32,964 nucleotides of DNA, from NCBI GenBank assembly GCA_938084675.1, contig CALKGM010000013.1, positions 1 through 32,964 of the forward strand, written 5' to 3'. Origin of the DNA: Candidatus Poseidoniaceae archaeon (GTDB lineage Archaea > Thermoplasmatota > Poseidoniia > Poseidoniales > Poseidoniaceae). How positions within the stretch are numbered: position 1 is the stretch's first letter; every line of letters begins with the position of its first letter. The notes beneath the pieces are model-generated. The model had not been told where the DNA came from and ran no database searches. It saw only the letters and a list, made by a program, of their open reading frames with translations. This document shows positions 5,611-16,353 of this stretch, in pieces. The translations under genes and the position numbers were made by a program.

Positions 5611-5682
5611 ACCTTGAAATCTTATCTTAGCATCCGGACCAAAAGAAGGCCACATTCTTATGCTCTATCCTGTTGGCTCACA

Positions 5683-8600
5683 ATGTTGATGAATATGCGC
5701 CGAATGACTCCCTATACTCTTGTCATCTTGATGCTCCTCCAATCCTTTGCTTTGATGGTTGCACCTCCAGTAGAAGCAGCATCAGGTCGTGGCGGAACCA
5801 ACGACGACTATACCGTCAAAACCATTTCTCTTGGAAACTCCTCTAAAATGTCCTCTCAATGGATTCAGTCCGATGGTACTGTCATGAATTACATTTTTGT
5901 TGATACTCCCATTGAGATCAAAGTTACAGTACAACGGTTTGGGACGGGTGCAATCGGTGAAACTGCTCCAGTTATGCTGGAAGTTGTCCACCCCATTGGA
6001 TTCGTTATGGAGACCTACACTTGGAATACAGGCCCTCTCACCGGAGGCCAACAAGATGTCTATTCTATGCCGTGGACGCCTACAGCAGCCCATTCCATCC
6101 TCAACACTTCTACCAACGATTTGACTGGAGGCCTCATTCTTCGAGCGACAGTTGCCTTTGGTGATGATTCACGAAACGAGAACGACGTAAGAGAGGAAAC
6201 TGTGCCCATCGCAATTACCTCTGATATTTTTGACGGTACTACGACAGGTGCTTCGACCTTCTTCTCTGGAAAATACCCATCTGCTGGTGGCGGAGCAGTC
6301 GCTGCTGGTTCATGGGTGACCGACAGCGGAGCGAGTGCCGCAGGCACGAAGCATTGGCGACATTCATCTGAAGGGAGCAACTATCCATCCAACGCAGAAG
6401 CAACCCGTTTAGTCAACGGTCATTTGATGACCGGCCAAACATGTGGTGTGGATTCAGTTCTTGACGGAGAGCTCAGCAACATATACACACAATACCTCTG
6501 CAGGTCATTGTTCTACTCAAACGAATATGTGTCCAGTCAGTATCACATCCAAGCATGGGGCAGTATGAGCACTGGCGACTCAGTTTCTCTTGAATTATGG
6601 AGAGGGTCCGGTAACATCAACGATGATTATGAATCCGTTTCTTGGGATATTTCTCAAGGCAATCCAAGTGCAGCGCCAGGACAATGGACAAACATTTCGT
6701 GGGACCCGCAAGAGTCATGGGTTCAGATCCCGAATTTGGCGAACCCAGATATTTTCCTCGGAGGCAACTCTTACTCCTTCGGACTGCTGTTCAACTCGGA
6801 CTCAAGCGCAGCGAGTGAAGGGTTCCACGTAGACGACATGATTCAATTTGGTGTGAGTAAGGTTAGCGACTACACAGTTGACCTGCAATGTGACAATCCT
6901 AGCAGTGGTGGCTACACCATCGCACCAAACCAAATGGCAATACTCCAGTGTTCGTTGACTAACAACGGATATTCTCCGGCCACGATTCGGGTAGAGACCA
7001 ACGTGACCAACGATTCATGGATGGTTCCGTTCCCGATTATTCGCATGGACATTGAAGGAAGCAGCAGCCACGGTACGAACGTCATCATGCCGGTACTTGG
7101 CGCAGGTGACACCATTGAATTCTGGGCTAACCTCACCGTTCCAGCCGGAGCAGATGTTCAACAACAAACATGGAACCTTTGGCTCAGCGATGCGAGCAGT
7201 GCTCAACTTGGAGAAAAGGCCCGTCTTGAGATGGACCTCGCAGTGAGCGAACAGTTTGGTGTTGCCCTTACCTCGACCGTAGGTTTGCTTGCAGCAACGT
7301 TTGGACCTGGCGAATACGGCACCGTTGACTTCCGCCTACAAAACACAGGAAACAAAGACGCTGCCTTTAATCTCGTCACCTCTTTCTCAGATACAAGTAC
7401 CCCTGGTGGGTGGTCTGCTACCGTTCTTAATGAAACGGGAGTCATTATCCCGAACCCGATTACACTTGCGAAGGGTGAACGCATTGAATTGACGCTCAAC
7501 ATTACTGCACCCGAACTTGCTCCACCAGGGCCAGTCTCATTCAATCTACGAGCAACATGCCCTTCATGCTCAACTCCTCTCTTCGGTACGGACCAACTTG
7601 TTCGCAACATCGAAGTTCCAGTCCTGCGTGATGTTCAATTGGAAACAGAAGAATACTCATTGACCGGCTCTGCGAACGGAAACGGTCGTTCCGTTATCGT
7701 CAATATCTTCAATCTCGGAAACGACGACGAACAATATGACTTGAGCATTGTACAAAGCAACTGGAGGCTCCAAGCATCCCTTCCAGCAACTCAATCTCCA
7801 GTTCTCGATGCTTGGGATGGAGAAGGGGCTTTTGTCCTGCGACTTGCAATGCCAGTTGGTCTTACTCCAGCTCTCTACACGGTCAAGGTCATTGCAACCA
7901 ACGTTGCTGACCCGACCGTGTCAACCTCTATTGACATCACTATAGACATTCTTGAAACGGCTGCAGTCTTCGTATCCGATGAAGATACGGGGCAATCATA
8001 CATTCCTGGCGATCCTGCTCAAACCATGGCCTTTGAGGTGCGAAACGATGGTAACAGTGCTGACCGATTTAATATGACACTTGACATTCCAATTGGTATG
8101 CAGGCCAAATTTACCAACCTTGTTAACGGACAAACTACCGAGATTGATGTTGGATCGAGTTTCAACGTTACCGTTGAGTTTTCATTCCTCGCGGGAGCAG
8201 AAGGCGATTTAACACTCGGAGTCATTGCAACAAGTGCATCAGATGACACCGTTAGTGCAACCGGTGAGGCAACGTACCTTGTAGGGTCACAAAACTGGTT
8301 GAAGATTTACACCATCCAACCTGTTTCCATCAACGAAGAGGGTGAATATGAAGTCACTGTCCGGGTAAAGAATCAGTATACAACGGCGCAGGTCGTTGTC
8401 ATTGAATTGGATGATTCAGAAACCAAATCTTGGTTCCAGACCAAAATCGACCGACTGGACCGAGACTTCTCTTTGGGCTTGAACGAAGAGCGAGAAGTAA
8501 CGCTCACCCTCGAAGTGACTGAAACCACATTGAAGAACCTCAATTCAGAAGTCTTTGTTTCTAACTTGACTATATGGGCTCGTTCCGAAACTGTAAGTGA

Positions 8601-9069
8601 TGCAGCAAACGGTCGTCTAGAGGTCACACTCATCAAGCAAGATTCTGATTCAGAAGATGTTACTGACGGCGCAGGTTCAGGCTTCCCGATCGAAGAAATC
8701 GCTCTTTGGGGTGTATTCTTGTTGATTCTCGTCGGTGGTGTTATCGTTCTTTTGACCATCATGCGTAGCGAAGAAGAAGATGATGATGAATACAAAAACT
8801 GGGGCGAGGATGGATACGAAGACAGTTTGTCTGCAAATTATGGCGCGGTTGCTTCCGCTCCTACCGTTCCCGTTGCAGGTGCACCTTCACCTGAACCAAT
8901 CCCAGCAGGGGCTCCGCCAACAGCGCCAGCCCCGGCTCCTCAACCCGCCTCGGCACCTGTTGATGACGGTATGCCCCCGCTACCTGCGGGTGGTCTCCCA
9001 AACGGTTGGACCATGGAACAGTGGAAGCATTACGGACAGCAGTGGCTTGAGCAGAACGGCCAAGCTTGA
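5683..9069 (+). CDS. Large surface protein: signal peptide, tandem beta-sandwich domains, C-terminal helix and cytoplasmic tail
   Basis: From ATG 5683 this is 1128 residues. The frame is open from TTG 5614, but the signal peptide (MRRMTPYTLVILMLL onward, ending near VEAAS) favours an ATG at 5683, 5689 or 5695. The outer part has an N-terminal region with a jelly-roll-like stretch, then several repeats of the form 'LxNxGNxxxxFNL' (for example QNTGNKDAAFNL, FNLGNDDEQYDL, RNDGNSADRFNM). These resemble CARDB/NEW3-type beta-sandwich domains of archaeal surface proteins. A transmembrane helix spans about 1005-1027. The tail is acidic (RSEEEDDDEY), then Pro/Ala-rich, and ends in a compact motif, GWTMEQWKHYGQQWL (1108-1122). 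Likely roles are S-layer-like structure, adhesion or carbohydrate binding. Confidence 0.87.
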   Translation: MLMNMRRMTPYTLVILMLLQSFALMVAPPVEAASGRGGTNDDYTVKTISLGNSSKMSSQWIQSDGTVMNYIFVDTPIEIKVTVQRFGTGAIGETAPVMLEVVHPIGFVMETYTWNTGPLTGGQQDVYSMPWTPTAAHSILNTSTNDLTGGLILRATVAFGDDSRNENDVREETVPIAITSDIFDGTTTGASTFFSGKYPSAGGGAVAAGSWVTDSGASAAGTKHWRHSSEGSNYPSNAEATRLVNGHLMTGQTCGVDSVLDGELSNIYTQYLCRSLFYSNEYVSSQYHIQAWGSMSTGDSVSLELWRGSGNINDDYESVSWDISQGNPSAAPGQWTNISWDPQESWVQIPNLANPDIFLGGNSYSFGLLFNSDSSAASEGFHVDDMIQFGVSKVSDYTVDLQCDNPSSGGYTIAPNQMAILQCSLTNNGYSPATIRVETNVTNDSWMVPFPIIRMDIEGSSSHGTNVIMPVLGAGDTIEFWANLTVPAGADVQQQTWNLWLSDASSAQLGEKARLEMDLAVSEQFGVALTSTVGLLAATFGPGEYGTVDFRLQNTGNKDAAFNLVTSFSDTSTPGGWSATVLNETGVIIPNPITLAKGERIELTLNITAPELAPPGPVSFNLRATCPSCSTPLFGTDQLVRNIEVPVLRDVQLETEEYSLTGSANGNGRSVIVNIFNLGNDDEQYDLSIVQSNWRLQASLPATQSPVLDAWDGEGAFVLRLAMPVGLTPALYTVKVIATNVADPTVSTSIDITIDILETAAVFVSDEDTGQSYIPGDPAQTMAFEVRNDGNSADRFNMTLDIPIGMQAKFTNLVNGQTTEIDVGSSFNVTVEFSFLAGAEGDLTLGVIATSASDDTVSATGEATYLVGSQNWLKIYTIQPVSINEEGEYEVTVRVKNQYTTAQVVVIELDDSETKSWFQTKIDRLDRDFSLGLNEEREVTLTLEVTETTLKNLNSEVFVSNLTIWARSETVSDAANGRLEVTLIKQDSDSEDVTDGAGSGFPIEEIALWGVFLLILVGGVIVLLTIMRSEEEDDDEYKNWGEDGYEDSLSANYGAVASAPTVPVAGAPSPEPIPAGAPPTAPAPAPQPASAPVDDGMPPLPAGGLPNGWTMEQWKHYGQQWLEQNGQA

Positions 9070-9146: not shown

Positions 9147-10769
9147 ATGTACGGAAATGGACAAGCGCCTATCTTTATCCTAAAGGATGGGACACAACGA
9201 ACTCGTGGACGAACTGCACAATCAAACAACATTGCTGCTGCAAAGGCGGTAGCAGATGCGGTTCGGTCTACACTCGGGCCCAAAGGTATGGATAAGATGC
9301 TTGTTGACTCAATGGGCGATGTTGTCATTACAAACGATGGAGCGACCATTCTCAAGGAAATGGACATCGAACACCCAGCGGCTAAAATGATCATTGAGGT
9401 TGCAAAAACTCAGGAACAACATTGCTATGACGGCACAACTTCCGCAGTAATCCTCTCCGGAGAACTTCTCAAGCGAAGTGAGGATTTGATTGAGCAAAAT
9501 GTCCACCCAACGGTCATTTGTGAAGGGTTTCGCCTTGCAGCAGAACGAGCGATTGGACTTCTAGAAAATCATGGTATCTCCACTGATAACGATGACAACG
9601 TACTTTTGGAAGTGGCAAAGACGGCACTCACAGGAAAATCAGCAGGTGCTGTGAAGTCATTTATGGCCGATATCTGTGTGCGTGCAGTTCATGCAGTCGG
9701 TATCACGGAAGACGGAGAGCGTCTCGTTGATTTGTCTGACATTAAGGTTGAGAAGCGTCAAGGTGGATCAATCAAAGATTCAACATTGATCGATGGTATC
9801 CTTTTGGACAAAGAACGCGTCCATGCAGGAATGCCTCGGGTCATGAGCGATGCAAAGATTGCTCTTGTGAACTCGGCGATTGAAGTTAAGAAAACTGAAG
9901 TTGACGCAAAGATTCAGATTACAGACCCAAACCAACTAGCACTGTTCTTAGAAGAAGAAGAGAACTACATCCGCAACTTGGTCAATACGATTGAATCCGC
10001 AGGGGCAAATGTACTGGTATGCCAGAAAGGAATCGATGAACTGGCACAACATTACCTCTCCAAGAAAGGAATTTTCGCCATTCGCCGGGCTAAAAAGTCC
10101 GATATGGAAGCGCTATCAAAAGCAACTGGCGGCACCATCATCACCAACCTCGAAGACATGAGTGAATCCGACTTGGGTCTGGCAGCTCGTGTTGAAGAAA
10201 AGAAAATTGGCGAATCAAACATGACCTTCGTCACCGGATGTCCCGAGGCCAAATCCGTTTCCGTTCTCCTTCGTGGTGGAACCGAGCACGTTGTTGATGA
10301 AATTCGACGTGCATTTGACGATGCGGTTGGAGTTGTCTCCGTTGCATGGGAAGACGGGTCAGTACTGACTGGAGGCGGAAGCGTCCTTGCAGCACTCTCA
10401 CGAGACTTGCGCACCTTTGCAGAAACCGTAGGCGGTCGTGAGCAAATGGCCATTGAAGCATTTGCTTCAGCCCTAGAAATCATTCCTCGCACCCTGGCAG
10501 AAAACGCTGGTCTCGACCCGGTCACAACGCTTATCGAATTGCGCAAAGCTCACGCAGACGGACAATCCTTTGCAGGAATCAACGTCTATGAAGGCGGCGT
10601 GGTTGATATGAACGAAGCAAATGTTGTTGAACCTCTACGTGTCGTTGAGCAAGCAATTCAGTCAGCAACCGAAACAGCAATCATGATTCTGCGTATCGAT
10701 GACGTGATTTCATCCAAGGGCGTTCCTATGGAAGGCGGCATGGGTGGCATGGGCGATTTCAACATGTGA
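9147..10769 (+). CDS. thsA: Thermosome subunit (group II chaperonin)
   Basis: This 540-residue protein is a subunit of the archaeal double-ring ATP-dependent chaperonin. Visible family motifs are [15 protein letters not shown] (41-55), [10 protein letters not shown] (63-72), the apical-domain region [21 protein letters not shown], the GGGS stretch near residue 410, LAENAGLDP, and a Gly/Met-rich C terminus ([12 protein letters not shown]). The usual GDGTT nucleotide-binding motif reads YDGTT (94-98): the catalytic-site D95 is kept, but the preceding Gly is Tyr and the residues before it are HC. The start is supported by GGAGG about eight bases upstream. The gene appears monocistronic, with a terminator hairpin just after the stop. 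Whether other subunits exist in the genome cannot be seen. Confidence 0.96.
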
Positions 10770-10907: not shown

Positions 10908-12872
10908 ATGGCAATTGTCGCAAAAGTATGGATTGACGAGGATTGCATCACCTGTGATGCATGTCAGGACATTTGTCCGGAAGTTTTCGAGGTGACCGAT
11001 GATTCATCCATGATTCTAGCGGCAGTTCGTACGGACGGCTTATTCGATAGAAACGAAGGCGGCTCGCCCCTCACTGGCACGCTCGGTGCTGAACTTGGAG
11101 ACATTATTCTTGAGGCCGCAGAAGCCTGCCCGGTAGAAGTAATCAAGTTCGAACTCGTTGGTGATGGTGCCGCAGTTACTGAAGTCGCAGCAGAAGCGGT
11201 GGCAGAAGTTGCTCCAGCAGCGGTGGCCGCAGTTGCGCCCGCAGCCGGGGCATCAGACGAGCTTAACGCAGTCTTCGCAGGCGACCGCACACTGAACATC
11301 TTGTTTGGTTCACAAACTGGTAACGCAGCGGGTCTCGCTGAAAAAACTGCCAAGATGGCAGGCAACTACGGCTTGGAAGCGAAAGTGGTTGATATGGACG
11401 GGCTTGATCCAGCCTCACTGGCTTCAATGAAGCGAGTGATGATCATCACCTCTACATGGGGTGAGGGTGAGATGCCGGACAACGCCGAATCAGCTTGGAA
11501 TGCAATCAATGCAAACGGGCCAGGTCTTGGAAATACTCACTTTTCCATCTGTGCAATTGGCGATTCGTCCTACGATGAATTCTGTAAGGCCGGCCATGAT
11601 TGGAACGGCAAACTCGCTTCGTTGGGCGGTCATGAAGCACACCCTCTGCAGGAATGTGACGTAGACTTTGACGCTCCTTGGCAACTTTGGGTGAATGAAG
11701 CACTTCCACTGTTGGCGTGTGTTGATTCATCAGGTACCCTTCAGGTAGAACTTCTTGAAGAAATGAAGGCTTACGGGTCCGGTGATGACGATGATGCGGT
11801 TGAAGGTGATTTCACACCAGGTAAGATTGCTCGTGAAGAATTGACCATCACGCTTGAATTGTTCCGATACTGCCCAGATGCAGCAGAATCCGGGTGGGAT
11901 ACGCTCACGTGCAGCGTCCCCGGTCATGCAACTGTCCAAGACCTCCTCATCTCCATGCAACAGGATGTTGATGGAAGTCTTGCGTTCCGAAGAGGAAACG
12001 GTGCTGGGACACCAACCACCGGTATTCGGGTAAACGGTCGTGTCACTCTTTCAGATTCAACGATGATCGCTGACCTTACCTCTGACGGAGGACGGGTTCG
12101 GGTAGAACCTCTTCCCGGTCACCCAGTCGTTAGAGACCTCATCGTTGATACCTCGCGCTACGAAAACCATCGAAGCCGAGCAGAACCATGGATGCGAACA
12201 GACCCACGTGAAGGTGAACGTCTTCCATCTGGAGCAGCACTTGGTACCATGGAGCCAGCACTCGCAACGAACCTTCACCTTGCCGGTGATGTCCAATCCT
12301 TCCAGTTAATCCAAGCAATGTCGGATACATTAGCCCATGATTCACACTACGAAGGCCCTGGCGTTCACTTCCAGCAATGGTTGCGTGCTAAGGACCCACG
12401 AACGAGTCAAGAACAACGCAGGAGCATCATGAACTCGCTCTTGCAAAGAGACGGTGTATGGTCTGAAGCAGACCATGCCAGCTTGTTGCGCTTTGGAGAA
12501 GACGGTCGCCTTGCTGCTCAAAGCCTCAACGAAGCACGAATGCAATTGCTCAACCAAACCAAGTACGCCGGTAAGCATGGCCGGCTTGTCAAGTGGTACG
12601 GACGAAGTGTCAAGTGGACCGGTAAGGTCAATGAAACGACGCTTTACCGCCAAGTTCTCGGCCCTCTTGGTCTCGTAGGCAACGTCTTCAGCGGAGTTTC
12701 TGCTCGTATGGCCCTCGCATTTACACGGAATGGTTCTCCTCCAATCCGAAGCCTCCAATCCCTTCTGCTTCCGCCGGCCGGGCTTGGACGTATACCTAAT
12801 ATGATCAACTCTAAGGTTCACAACTACCACGAAGTAGTCTCTCTCTTCAATGAGATTGACCAAAGATTCTGA
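10908..12872 (+). CDS. Ferredoxin-flavodoxin-SdhB-like fusion protein (SdhB part lacks cluster cysteines)
   Basis: This 654-residue protein has three modules. Residues 1-82 are a 4Fe-4S ferredoxin with C13, C16, C19 and C74 as likely ligands and an extra C23. An Ala/Val-rich linker (about 88-117) leads to a flavodoxin (128-270) with FMN motifs FGSQTGNA, STWGEGEMPDN and IGDSSYDEF. Residues 311-550 follow the SdhB framework: LELFRYCPD, DGSLAFRR (355-362), VNGR, EPLPGHPVVRDLIVD (400-414) and YEGPG (481-485). Where SdhB has its [2Fe-2S] cysteines this protein reads RRGNGAGTPTTG and TLSD, and both C-terminal cysteine clusters are also absent. The last 100 residues are basic and unrecognised. An HdrB/SdhE-like gene follows after six bases. 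It is probably a soluble electron-transfer protein; partner and substrate are unknown. Confidence 0.85.
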   Translation: MAIVAKVWIDEDCITCDACQDICPEVFEVTDDSSMILAAVRTDGLFDRNEGGSPLTGTLGAELGDIILEAAEACPVEVIKFELVGDGAAVTEVAAEAVAEVAPAAVAAVAPAAGASDELNAVFAGDRTLNILFGSQTGNAAGLAEKTAKMAGNYGLEAKVVDMDGLDPASLASMKRVMIITSTWGEGEMPDNAESAWNAINANGPGLGNTHFSICAIGDSSYDEFCKAGHDWNGKLASLGGHEAHPLQECDVDFDAPWQLWVNEALPLLACVDSSGTLQVELLEEMKAYGSGDDDDAVEGDFTPGKIAREELTITLELFRYCPDAAESGWDTLTCSVPGHATVQDLLISMQQDVDGSLAFRRGNGAGTPTTGIRVNGRVTLSDSTMIADLTSDGGRVRVEPLPGHPVVRDLIVDTSRYENHRSRAEPWMRTDPREGERLPSGAALGTMEPALATNLHLAGDVQSFQLIQAMSDTLAHDSHYEGPGVHFQQWLRAKDPRTSQEQRRSIMNSLLQRDGVWSEADHASLLRFGEDGRLAAQSLNEARMQLLNQTKYAGKHGRLVKWYGRSVKWTGKVNETTLYRQVLGPLGLVGNVFSGVSARMALAFTRNGSPPIRSLQSLLLPPAGLGRIPNMINSKVHNYHEVVSLFNEIDQRF

Positions 12873-12878
12873 GGTGAG

Positions 12879-13739
12879 ATGATGGCGAAAATCACATACT
12901 ATCCCGGAAACGTCGCTAGAGCGGGCGCATCTGAAATTGAAGATATGATTCAACCCCTCTGCAGAGCCTTGAACATTCAACTTGTAGAACTCCCTCGCTC
13001 AAGCAGTGATGGTGGAAACATCATCAAGCAGGCTACTCCTAAACTTCAGGACGCATTGGTTGCCCGCAACCTTGCTCTTGCCGAGGACAAAGGACTTGAT
13101 GTCTTGACCACCTGTGCAAGCAGCCATGCAATCATGTGCAACACTGCACAAGACATGGCTCGCGACCCGGTTTACGCCAGTCAAATCAACAACCTTGTTG
13201 CTCGAACCTCAAACATTGAGTATTCAGGAGAATCCAAGTCGTGGCATCTGCTACACTATCTTGTAGAAGAGATTGGACTTGATAAGATCCGAGATGCTGT
13301 GAAAAACCCCCTCAAAATGAATGTGGCTGCTTACTACGGGCCAGACATGCAACGAGAAGGTGCTTGTGGAAACGACGACCCGTTCATGCCCACATACATG
13401 GAACAACTCTTTGAGGCTCTCGGCGGTCATGCAATTGACTATGAATCCAAATGTCAGAGTGTTGGCTCAACATCAGTTCTAAGTCTGGAAGACACCTCTC
13501 TTTCCATGACAGCAGCCGTACTTTCCGATGCGATTGATTCTGGTGCTGAACTCGTTGTGAGTGCTTGTACCATCTCACACGTTAACTTGGACTCGTATCA
13601 ATCCAAAGCAGGCCGAGTTTCAGGGAAGAATACCATTGTCCCCGTATGTCATCTTTCCGAAATTGTTGCATTCGCTCTAGGATTTTATCCAGACCGTTTC
13701 GCTCAATTGCGAACTCGTGTTCGGCTCATTGGTTCTTGA
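12879..13739 (+). CDS. HdrB/SdhE-like protein with most CCG cysteines lost
   Basis: This 286-residue protein follows the heterodisulfide reductase B / SdhE framework: N-terminal YYPG (7-10), ARNLALAED (62-70), DVLTTC (74-79), MNVAAYYGPDM (147-157), SACTISHVNLD (228-238) and PVCHLSEIVAFALG (255-268). In HdrB the two CCG motifs (CX31-39CCX35-36CXXC) hold unusual 4Fe-4S clusters. Here YYPGC is YYPGN, the first CC is SS (in RSSSDGG), YYGC is YYGP, and the CxxC pairs keep only C79 and C230. C192 sits near the second CC position but does not restore it. The start overlaps a strong GAGGTGA; ATG 12882 is an alternative. It directly follows the SdhB-like fusion, the order seen for sdhB-sdhE. The protein probably no longer binds these clusters. 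Confidence 0.78.
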   Translation: MMAKITYYPGNVARAGASEIEDMIQPLCRALNIQLVELPRSSSDGGNIIKQATPKLQDALVARNLALAEDKGLDVLTTCASSHAIMCNTAQDMARDPVYASQINNLVARTSNIEYSGESKSWHLLHYLVEEIGLDKIRDAVKNPLKMNVAAYYGPDMQREGACGNDDPFMPTYMEQLFEALGGHAIDYESKCQSVGSTSVLSLEDTSLSMTAAVLSDAIDSGAELVVSACTISHVNLDSYQSKAGRVSGKNTIVPVCHLSEIVAFALGFYPDRFAQLRTRVRLIGS

Positions 13740-16353
13740 TGCTACTGTTTTCCTTCAAGATTTGAAGGACACGGTTGGCGGTATCTGACCCGCACCCAGT
13801 TTCCTTGATGAGGTTCTCTTCCGTTGCCGTGAACAATGCTCCAAGGTGGGGTGAGAACGCGTTCATCACATCCCGTTCCTCATCGTTTACTCCCGTGAGT
13901 TGGGAGAGGGCGTGCTCAAAGCATCGCTCAAGTTGTTGTTGTGCACTCTCCAGCCATGGGTGAGAGGCTTCAGGATTCGCTAAGAGTAGGTCAATCTCAC
14001 ATGCTGCTTGTTTCATGATCGTTTTCAACTCCGCGCCAGTCGTGGTTTCAGAATTGACCATCTCATGAAAAGATTCGAGCAAGTCCTGCTCCCTTTGGGC
14101 TGCAATCGATACAAAATGGGCGGTTTCCATGGCATCCTTTGTCATCATCACAGGGATTCCCATGTCAAGTGTGATGTGAGCCAACGCCCCCAGTACGGCA
14201 TTTGGATGAAGGCCGTAGCCTGCATCCCCTCCCGTTTCAATCAGCAGCATCGGGCGAGAAGCACTCGCTCGTAAACTTCGACATTGGCTAAGGAGTCTGC
14301 CGTCCTTTATTGAAGCCAATAAATCCCTCGCTGTCTTTCGTTCTATAAGTATTCGTTCGGAGAGTCGGAGGTCTCCGTGAGGGAGGCGTGTAATTCGAGT
14401 TTTGAAACCGAGGCTCGCCAAATAGGACGGTAACGTTGAATTCATTTCTCGATGGTCAATTAGGATTTCATGGTCTTCTCCGTTGACCGAATTTAATGAA
14501 GAGATTTCTTCATCTGCTGCATTTAATACCACAGAGATACGAGGCTCGGGTATTTGTTGTTTCTTGGAATATGATTGAGGTTCTGCAGCAAAGGAATACA
14601 ATCCCTTTTGCTCTTTTGGCCGACGTTGCTCTGGCGTTAGCGGGGGGGCTGTTCTTGGAATGTGTTTTTGCCTTTCCTTGATGGATACTCCTGGTTGTGG
14701 GAATGATTCGGTCTCTTCCGGTTTGTGGAGCTCCTTCTCTTGTTCTAAAAATATAGCCGCTGGCAGTTTTTTCCCATTATCGCTCACAGCAAACGGATCT
14801 AAGAGCCCATCAAGGTCTCCATATTCATCCATGAGTTTTTTCTGACGTACCATTTTATCGACCAAACGATGCATGTTCCGTTCTTGATGCTTTGATGCAG
14901 AATGGATGTAGACATCGCGAGTTTCTTTCGTGATTAACACATGAACCGAGCCGGCTCGTTGACGGGCAGTTCTTCCCCTTCGTTGAATCGCACGAATCGC
15001 ACTTGGTACCGGTTCGTAAAGAATAACGAGGTCAGCTGCCGGGACGTCCAGCCCTTCTTCTCCAACTGATGTGGCGACGAGAACATTGATTTCACCTTCT
15101 CGGAATCGTTTCAGTTGCGCTAATTGTTGTTTTTGCGTCATTCCTTTCTGGGCTCCGCGTGAGGATTGACCAATGAATTTGTCAGGTTTCAGTCCCTCAA
15201 GTGTACTTAATCTCGCCACAAGGTTGCTCACAGTGTCTCTAAATTCTGTAAATACGAGTATTTTACCGTCTGGTTTTTGTCCAATCTCGTGTCTCACAAG
15301 CCGTTCAACAACAGATGTCTTGGGATGCAATTCTTCAACATCCACCAAGGATTTACGTAATTCATGAATGACGGGTAAAGACAGTAGACGGTTGGTTTTT
15401 CTTCCTTCCCGACCTTCTATCTCTGCTCGCTCTAGAAAGGAATGTGCAACATCTGTGCCTTGTGTTTTGAGGAGGTTCACGAGCATGTGCATCCGGCGAA
15501 GGTCTGCAACTCTACGAGCAGCATCATAGCCTCGGACATCACGCTGTTGGATTGCTCTACTTGCTCGCAATTGGGCCTTTTCGATATCGCCCGATGATAT
15601 ATGTTCTTTTGGAGCGAGGAATCCGAGTTGTTGGAGATGCTTGACTTCGGATAAAAAATGCTCCTCTAATGGTGTTATCAGCAAACCCAGTGAAGGAGGG
15701 AGTTCAATGAATTCTTCATGAATGTTCATGTCAACATCGAACGGTTTGACGAGCGGTTCATCACGTTTTGAAACATCAACCACTTGGATGCCAAGATTTT
15801 TTTGAACGTCATCAATGTGCCTTGCATTCGATCCCGGACTCGCTGTTGCTGCTAAGATGCGACCATCCGGGCGGGCTCTACGATACAACTTCCCCACCTG
15901 TGCATATGCGTGATTTCCAGTTGCATGATGTGCTTCATCAACGATGAGCAACCCAACCTCGCTGAGATTGATAGTACCGCTTTGAGCGTCATTTCGGATA
16001 ACCTGAGGTGTTGCCATCAGGACTCTTGCTTGGTCCCACAAGGTCTTGCGTTTCCCAGGTGCGGTCTCACCCGTGTATGCAACGATTTCATCAGGAGGTA
16101 ACTTGAGGTGTTGCTGGGCCATACTTCTTTGCTGGTCAACCAAACCAGTTGTTGGTGCTATGAGGATGATCTTCTCAACACCTCGGCGGAGGTATTCGGC
16201 CATTACCATCCACTCTACGGCGGTTTTGCCAAACCCTGTCGGCATGACCATCAACGTTGAAGCGGAAAGGCACCGTTCTAGTGAACGAATTTGGTATGCT
16301 CTGGCCTCAACACCGTCATGAAGAAACGGATGCTGGACGGTAGGCATTGCCAT
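13726..16353 (-). CDS. hef: Hef-type SF2 helicase / XPF-family nuclease
   Basis: This 875-residue protein should process stalled replication forks and branched DNA, like archaeal Hef and eukaryotic FANCM. The helicase part shows Walker A PTGFGKT (38-44), DEAH (139-142), TAS (170-172), VGEEGLDVP (430-438) and motif VI QRRGRTAR (457-464). A low-complexity linker (about 520-625) leads to an ERCC4 nuclease with GD (660-661), ERK (671-673) and D677, fitting GDXnERKX3D, so the nuclease looks active. The C terminus (about 830-868) has a helix-hairpin-helix-like region. The order and length match full-length Hef. The stop end overlaps the HdrB-like gene by 14 bases, convergently. The start sits beside the shared control region with the ribosomal operon. 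Confidence 0.95.
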   Translation of the reverse strand: MAMPTVQHPFLHDGVEARAYQIRSLERCLSASTLMVMPTGFGKTAVEWMVMAEYLRRGVEKIILIAPTTGLVDQQRSMAQQHLKLPPDEIVAYTGETAPGKRKTLWDQARVLMATPQVIRNDAQSGTINLSEVGLLIVDEAHHATGNHAYAQVGKLYRRARPDGRILAATASPGSNARHIDDVQKNLGIQVVDVSKRDEPLVKPFDVDMNIHEEFIELPPSLGLLITPLEEHFLSEVKHLQQLGFLAPKEHISSGDIEKAQLRASRAIQQRDVRGYDAARRVADLRRMHMLVNLLKTQGTDVAHSFLERAEIEGREGRKTNRLLSLPVIHELRKSLVDVEELHPKTSVVERLVRHEIGQKPDGKILVFTEFRDTVSNLVARLSTLEGLKPDKFIGQSSRGAQKGMTQKQQLAQLKRFREGEINVLVATSVGEEGLDVPAADLVILYEPVPSAIRAIQRRGRTARQRAGSVHVLITKETRDVYIHSASKHQERNMHRLVDKMVRQKKLMDEYGDLDGLLDPFAVSDNGKKLPAAIFLEQEKELHKPEETESFPQPGVSIKERQKHIPRTAPPLTPEQRRPKEQKGLYSFAAEPQSYSKKQQIPEPRISVVLNAADEEISSLNSVNGEDHEILIDHREMNSTLPSYLASLGFKTRITRLPHGDLRLSERILIERKTARDLLASIKDGRLLSQCRSLRASASRPMLLIETGGDAGYGLHPNAVLGALAHITLDMGIPVMMTKDAMETAHFVSIAAQREQDLLESFHEMVNSETTTGAELKTIMKQAACEIDLLLANPEASHPWLESAQQQLERCFEHALSQLTGVNDEERDVMNAFSPHLGALFTATEENLIKETGCGSDTANRVLQILKENSSIKNQ

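Follow-up and report, generated by a model that had tools for sequence, protein, structure and literature searches.

Lost iron-sulfur wiring and tethered one-electron carriers suggest a rebuilt, iron-sparing redox complex in marine group II archaea

SdhB carries the electron wire of complex II. In archaea of the order Poseidoniales (marine group II), an SdhB-like protein that has lost the cysteines of all its iron-sulfur clusters, here called SdhB*, is fused behind a ferredoxin (Fd) and a flavodoxin (Fld), or behind flavodoxins only. Together, the loss of the Fe-S wiring and the tethered carriers suggest a rebuilt, iron-sparing redox complex. The gene lies in a window of 32,964 nucleotides (the whole stretch of DNA that was analysed) from a member of the Poseidoniaceae. 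A first-pass annotation had taken this open reading frame (ORF) alone; it described the fusion correctly but missed a similarly stripped neighbour, SdhE*, a candidate third subunit, SdhA*, and the exchange of ferredoxin for flavodoxin. It had also suggested a re-purposed electron-transfer scaffold, a reading of which the descent from SdhB and the new redox modules are borne out here, and had put the gene forward as the best candidate for an undescribed system. An open-access full-text literature search found no description of this system, but the locus had already been listed in passing, under automatic names, in the available text of a 2019 paper (PMC6741140).

Results

The position, plus strand and 654-residue length first given for the ORF are right (Table 1). 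Because the Pfam and NCBIfam domains and a Foldseek match to SdhB all agree with it, so is the description of the fusion as a ferredoxin and a flavodoxin set before an SdhB-like part: Pfam detects Fer4_13, Flavodoxin_1 and Fer2_3, and the alignments to the NCBIfam SdhB (dhsB) and TfrB models end near residue 518, none of them scoring above its curated cut-off. The structure predicted for the fusion from 29 aligned rows is of only moderate quality (mean pLDDT 70.8, mostly below 50 past about residue 558; pTM 0.35); Foldseek matches it best to SdhB, a complex II subunit (6lum_K; E 1e-9 over 263 alignment columns). The outcome that had been set in advance against an SdhB origin, namely no SdhB fold, did not appear. 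One boundary does need correction. The SdhB part had been placed at residues 311-550, which is too short, as the region runs to residue 654 and its end aligns with a C-terminal extension of SdhB in f6, the nearest cluster-bearing family. By alignment, the C-terminal region of SdhB* thus consists of the former two-cluster domain plus the extension shared with f6 SdhB.

Table 1. Features of the fusion locus, with SdhA* listed last
Feature	Position	Strand	Basis
Fusion gene Fd - flavodoxin - SdhB-like (SdhB*), 654 aa	10908..12872	+	Single uninterrupted ORF; Pfam, NCBIfam
Ferredoxin module, residues 9-80	10932..11147	+	Pfam Fer4_13, E 4e-10
Flavodoxin module, CysJ/diflavin-reductase FMN-domain type, residues 131-252	11298..11663	+	Pfam Flavodoxin_1, E 2e-26
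SdhB* N-terminal domain, Fer2_3 fold, residues 315-418, without [2Fe-2S] cysteines	11850..12161	+	Pfam Fer2_3, E 1e-11
Former [2Fe-2S] loop, residues 360-372, sequence FRRGNGAGTPTTG	11985..12023	+	Alignment to SdhB
SdhB* C-terminal region, residues 421-654, without ligand cysteines	12168..12869	+	NCBIfam models; alignment
SdhE*, HdrB/SdhE-like, 286 aa	12879..13739	+	TIGR03288 E 2e-36; MFR SdhE E 3e-33
Thermosome subunit, conserved upstream neighbour (context only)	9147..10769	+	Pfam; synteny
Helicase with ERCC4 nuclease domain, conserved convergent neighbour (context only)	13726..16353	-	Pfam; synteny
SdhA*, divergent third SdhA relative, outside the window	G000:C26:49935-51593		Pfam; predicted fold

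Residues C13, C16, C19 and C74 of the ferredoxin, which we presume to be its cluster ligands, are invariant among the 29 aligned ferredoxin-bearing fusions. The flavodoxin matches TIGR01931 (E 5e-34), and in the predicted model it resembles the FMN domain of E. coli sulfite reductase (1ykg; Foldseek TMt 0.92). Three FMN-loop motifs (GSQTGN-like, STWGEG and GD..Y...C), which we take to be FMN-binding, recur in 28-32 of 32 Fld1 rows, in 32/32 Fld2 rows, in 21-24 of 24 FldAfterFd rows and in 13/14 FldOnly rows. The fused module is the only Flavodoxin_1 match in the source genome, which is 91.6% complete. CysJ and other diflavin reductases have a flavodoxin of the same type, but here the SdhB-like region takes the place of their FNR-like FAD/NADPH domain, for which Pfam gave no match in the fusion ORF.

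The first-pass annotation had noted that the SdhB part lacks its cluster cysteines, and this is borne out both for the former [2Fe-2S] loop and for the two C-terminal cysteine clusters, which are absent. As reference columns we used the 12 positions that are Cys in all three f6 SdhB proteins. Across 160 distinct SdhB* sequences, Cys occurs at these columns 0, 0, 7, 0, 1, 1, 0, 0, 0, 1, 0 and 0 times: the first four counts belong to the [2Fe-2S] ligand columns, and each of the eight columns for the two C-terminal clusters has Cys in 0 or 1 sequence. The loss is more than chance, and two of the former ligand columns have acquired new fixed residues, a Ser in 160/160 and a Glu in 160/160. An isolated case of cysteine loss, the alternative raised at the outset, is ruled out, since the relatives lack the cysteines as well: the ligand columns are emptied across the 160 distinct sequences, and the protein occurs in 112 of 115 genomes of the order. 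The fusion is under strong purifying selection: measured against L006, the closest usable relative, dN/dS is ~0.03 for SdhB* and ~0.01 for SdhE*, synonymous sites being saturated in most further pairs. There are no stops inside the listed SdhB* matches across the family and order samples. With an open frame, order-wide occurrence and this low dN/dS, the gene is not a pseudogene, as the annotation had argued.

SdhB* was found in 133 of 145 genomes of the source family Poseidoniaceae, covering 11/11 genera, and, by a profile search, in 112 of the 115 sampled genomes of the order. In the third (sister) family of the class, f3, the fusion was found in 0/20 genomes, two of which have a short SdhB match only. 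A contig scan gave 264 relatives, the best 80 of which are nearly all from marine group II/Poseidoniales metagenome-assembled genomes. Among those 80 is a contig titled Rhodobiaceae bacterium (L252) with a fusion of the marine group II type at 62% identity; this contig is probably mis-binned. The order thermosome, fusion, SdhE*, helicase is kept in 40/40 loci from both families, and ribosomal protein L3 comes next in 39. Two loci, L079 (genome G147) and L249, have SdhB* and SdhE* in one ORF, in a TfrB-like order, either as a real fusion or through assembly error; the ORF of L079 lacks the last part of SdhB*.

SdhE* resembles HdrB and SdhE over its whole length (PDB HdrB 8rvv_B, E 1e-29), and it too has been stripped. 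In the source genome, the N-terminal and C-terminal CCG sites are both lost; C79 and C230, which correspond to HdrB Cys78 and Cys231, remain. At the C-terminal site, Cys231 is kept in 157/157 SdhE* proteins, and none of them has Cys at any of the four further ligand columns. At the N-terminal site, all five ligands are present in 13 of 157 copies and Cys78 in 156/157. One family contributes intact copies from five genera and the other from a single genus, 13 in all, and every one of them accompanies an Fd-Fld fusion. Because the outgroup has the N-terminal site and both families hold it, the site is most simply ancestral, and the sequences are most simply read as showing that it was lost more than once; on the SdhB* tree it changes 4 times. 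Separately, in genera g3 and g8, L034, L042 and L346 keep the site amid lineages lacking it, but it is lost in L035, their SdhB* neighbour, a pattern that looks like recombination between lineages. EtfD shows that the ligand set of a CCG site can change and the site cease to be catalytic (available text of PMC13083937). Among HdrBC and EtfD, SdhE* is HdrB by sequence; EtfD keeps two clusters, whereas SdhE* of the source genome has one Cys of five at each site.

The module at the N-terminus of SdhB* varies. The 160 ORFs comprise 99 Fd-Fld fusions, plus one with a gap-filled second Fd match and one fused to SdhE*; 36 Fld-Fld fusions, plus one fused to SdhE* and one split; and 13 with a single Fld and room upstream. 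The remainder are six ORFs truncated at contig ends, one broken by a frame change (L017) and one with an odd Fd-SdhB pattern (L317). The CxxCxxC...C pattern is present in 99 of 102 Fd-bearing ORFs; masking or truncation affects the other three. A tree built from 99 of the 160 SdhB* rows, by a quick method with SH-aLRT support only, has 23 changes of the module; its strongly supported branches by themselves force 15 for Fd-Fld and 16 for Fld-Fld. The first flavodoxins are not one clade (7 changes, at least 4 forced). Exchange is plainest in seven close pairs in which SdhB* is 87-97% identical, the thermosome lies directly upstream in both members and just the module differs. The inner flavodoxin is 84-95% identical in six of these pairs and 53% in the pair L312/L313, where more than the leading module was therefore exchanged. 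Replacement of the ferredoxin by a second flavodoxin, or its absence, thus recurs, and it does so even among sisters whose SdhB parts are 93-97% identical. Under iron shortage, ferredoxin, an iron carrier, is replaced by flavodoxin, a flavin carrier; here, by contrast, the exchange takes place within one fused protein and is fixed per genome, and is not a two-gene switch.

In a phylum sample of 194 genomes, 150 of which have a match to the SdhE* (HdrB*) profile, the best scores beyond the order belong to f6 (6 genomes, 224-243 bits), the next best being 198. In the three f6 loci that were read, sdhA, sdhB and hdrB are contiguous, and all six f6 genomes have SdhA. We take this arrangement to be that of a class-E succinate dehydrogenase/fumarate reductase, and these operons are the nearest intact relatives found. 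Class-E SdhABE, MFR SdhE and the thiol:fumarate reductase TfrAB share with our locus an SdhB with a C-terminal extension followed by an HdrB/SdhE gene. Unlike class-E SdhABE, the Poseidoniales genes encode an SdhB* with no Fe-S ligands, an SdhE* with one CCG site or none, and fused ferredoxin or flavodoxin modules; the SdhA* described below is unlinked, being outside any operon with SdhB*/SdhE*, and is without the dicarboxylate residues.

Canonical complex II has been reported for marine group II (available text of PMC6336850). The source genome has a canonical SdhA-SdhB pair encoded by adjacent genes, with all cysteines present. It also encodes an L-aspartate oxidase, and SdhA* is its third, divergent SdhA relative. 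Of 41 genomes, 38 have SdhA* at full length and one has a fragment; in the other two, which are drafts, it was not seen. Its predicted model (pLDDT 91.5) matches complex-II SdhA over the whole length with TMq 0.89, versus 0.74 for L-aspartate oxidase, and the Pfam domains FAD_binding_2 and Succ_DH_flav_C score over cut-off. However, 22/22 aligned copies have other residues in place of the RGEGG Arg, the HY His, the GANRLG Arg and the SHTVAA His. The first three, which we take to be dicarboxylate-site residues of SdhA/FrdA, are present in 30/30 SdhA, FrdA and NadB rows. Judged by these replacements, SdhA* should therefore not act on succinate or fumarate.

All SdhA* sequences group together with 100/100 support behind a long stem branch. 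In the best tree they lie on the same side as NadB of a branch with 95/88 support. A direct sister relationship to f6 SdhA was rejected (AU test, p-AU 0.0005). Grouping SdhA* with all SdhA/FrdA except the canonical group (p 0.12), or with the canonical group (0.09), was not rejected. The gene lies apart from the fusion in 8/8 neighbourhoods examined. In these loci (L066:1681-9037 and L353-L359) a conserved neighbourhood recurs, made up of RfcL, a membrane protein without a Pfam match, SdhA*, an acyltransferase-domain protein and a DUF2299 protein; over the eight loci, the acyltransferase-domain and DUF2299 neighbours occur in 8/8, the membrane protein in 7 and RfcL in 7. These recurring genes gave no clue to function. 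Nor did distances help: the partial correlation of SdhA* with SdhB* was r 0.47, while the negative control, SdhA* with the helicase, gave 0.50. What ties SdhA* to SdhB* is therefore fold, occurrence throughout the order and the loss of active residues in both.

Discussion

Stripping of ligands, conservation throughout the order, exchange of carrier cassettes and an SdhA-type fold with an altered active site are what we observe. The reading that we prefer, and that we hold tentatively, at a little less than an even chance, is that a class-E succinate dehydrogenase/fumarate reductase-type complex has been rebuilt around tethered one-electron carriers. The ancestor would have been a class-E operon of sdhA, an sdhB with three clusters and an sdhE/HdrB with two non-cubane clusters, from which the Fe-S wire was then lost. 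SdhB* and SdhE* would retain their folds as a docking scaffold that holds the parts together, and one or two one-electron carriers tethered at the N-terminus of SdhB* would substitute for the wire. The carriers would be a [4Fe-4S] ferredoxin together with an FMN flavodoxin in some proteins and iron-free flavodoxins, singly or paired, in others. Carried on a flexible Ala/Pro-rich linker, they may dock at the former start or end of the wire. Low-potential electrons from donors such as 2-oxoacid:ferredoxin oxidoreductases could then pass through the carriers to the FAD of SdhA*, which would reduce something other than fumarate. We infer the partnership with SdhA*, the donors, the direction of electron flow and the substrate.

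Several observations speak for a rebuilt complex. SdhB* and SdhE* are encoded by adjacent genes in 40/40 loci and by one ORF in L079 and L249; SdhA* occurs order-wide, with a predicted complex-II fold and without the dicarboxylate residues. Others speak against it: SdhA* is unlinked in all eight neighbourhoods, the tree, which has long branches, does not join it to f6 SdhA, and of the 41 genomes two drafts have SdhB* but no SdhA* and another has a fragment. With three clusters gone, moreover, the electron distance would be long unless the carriers move. A more far-reaching form of the idea, which we regard as doubtful, is that an order-wide member of the complex II superfamily has become a flavin-to-flavin oxidoreductase, wholly iron-free in many lineages, in which FMN on a cluster-less SdhB/SdhE supplies the FAD of an SdhA that has been turned to another substrate; the leading carrier, ferredoxin or flavodoxin, would then be an in-frame cassette swapped among relatives, representing a genetically fixed choice of iron economy.

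Alternatively, SdhA* may have no part in the system. The fusion could be the cell's docked flavodoxin/ferredoxin, held at the membrane or on a protein, with SdhB*/SdhE* serving as an adaptor to another partner such as a 2-oxoacid oxidoreductase, the canonical SdhA or some other enzyme. That the source genome has no Flavodoxin_1 match besides the fused one fits this, as do the swapping of cassettes while SdhB* stays and the unlinked position and unsettled tree placement of SdhA*. We nevertheless think it somewhat unlikely, given that the complex-II SdhA fold of SdhA* is expected to need an SdhB-type partner and that the genome's cluster-bearing SdhB adjoins the canonical SdhA.

It is also conceivable that the proteins form a redox-sensing or regulatory pseudo-enzyme, that is, a complex-II relative with no catalytic activity of its own, which would sense the state of FMN or [4Fe-4S] and control some other process. 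Active-site or cluster residues are gone in all three subunits while the folds and new invariant positions are kept, as such a role would predict. However, neither the fusion nor SdhE* gave a Pfam or NCBIfam match to a DNA-binding or signalling domain, and repeated swapping of ferredoxin and flavodoxin better fits carriers, so that we consider a regulatory role improbable. Less probable still is a thiol-disulfide enzyme in which Cys78 and Cys231 of SdhE*, one per CCG domain, would form a redox-active cysteine pair supplied by the flavodoxin: those two cysteines persist in 156/157 and 157/157 copies despite the loss of the clusters, but the residues lost include the catalytic bridging cysteines of HdrB, Cys81 and Cys234 (available text of PMC13083937), and Cys is absent from the position of Cys234 in all SdhE* copies. 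Decay, mis-assembly or sequencing artefact may account for single broken copies, such as the frame-split L017 and the 6/160 cut at contig ends, but is refuted for the family as a whole by its occurrence in 112/115 order genomes, its intact frames and its dN/dS of ~0.03, and is left with a vanishingly small probability.

A whole order of abundant ocean-surface archaea thus keeps SdhB*, SdhE* and an SdhA-like protein yet drops ligand or active residues in all three. If the three do form one rebuilt complex, it shows the stepwise de-ironing of a multi-cluster enzyme. Loss of the SdhB sites and the second SdhE site would predate the divergence of the two families; the first SdhE site would have gone afterwards, on more than one occasion, with the ferredoxin dropped repeatedly. 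The exchange of ferredoxin and flavodoxin in one gene is in any case a natural experiment on how interchangeable the carriers are and on what selects between them, for which iron supply is the obvious candidate. The rebuilt complex would also be an orphan redox enzyme present throughout the order, with a substrate that can be sought directly.

Two other genes of the window may be mentioned. At 5614-9069 is a predicted surface protein of 1151 aa, with a TTG start as listed and weak Ig-like Pfam matches; it lies upstream of the thermosome in 33/40 loci and was not found in the other 7, whose loci may end earlier. At 342-2504 the window encodes a subtilase-family protease (Peptidase_S8, E 5e-46).
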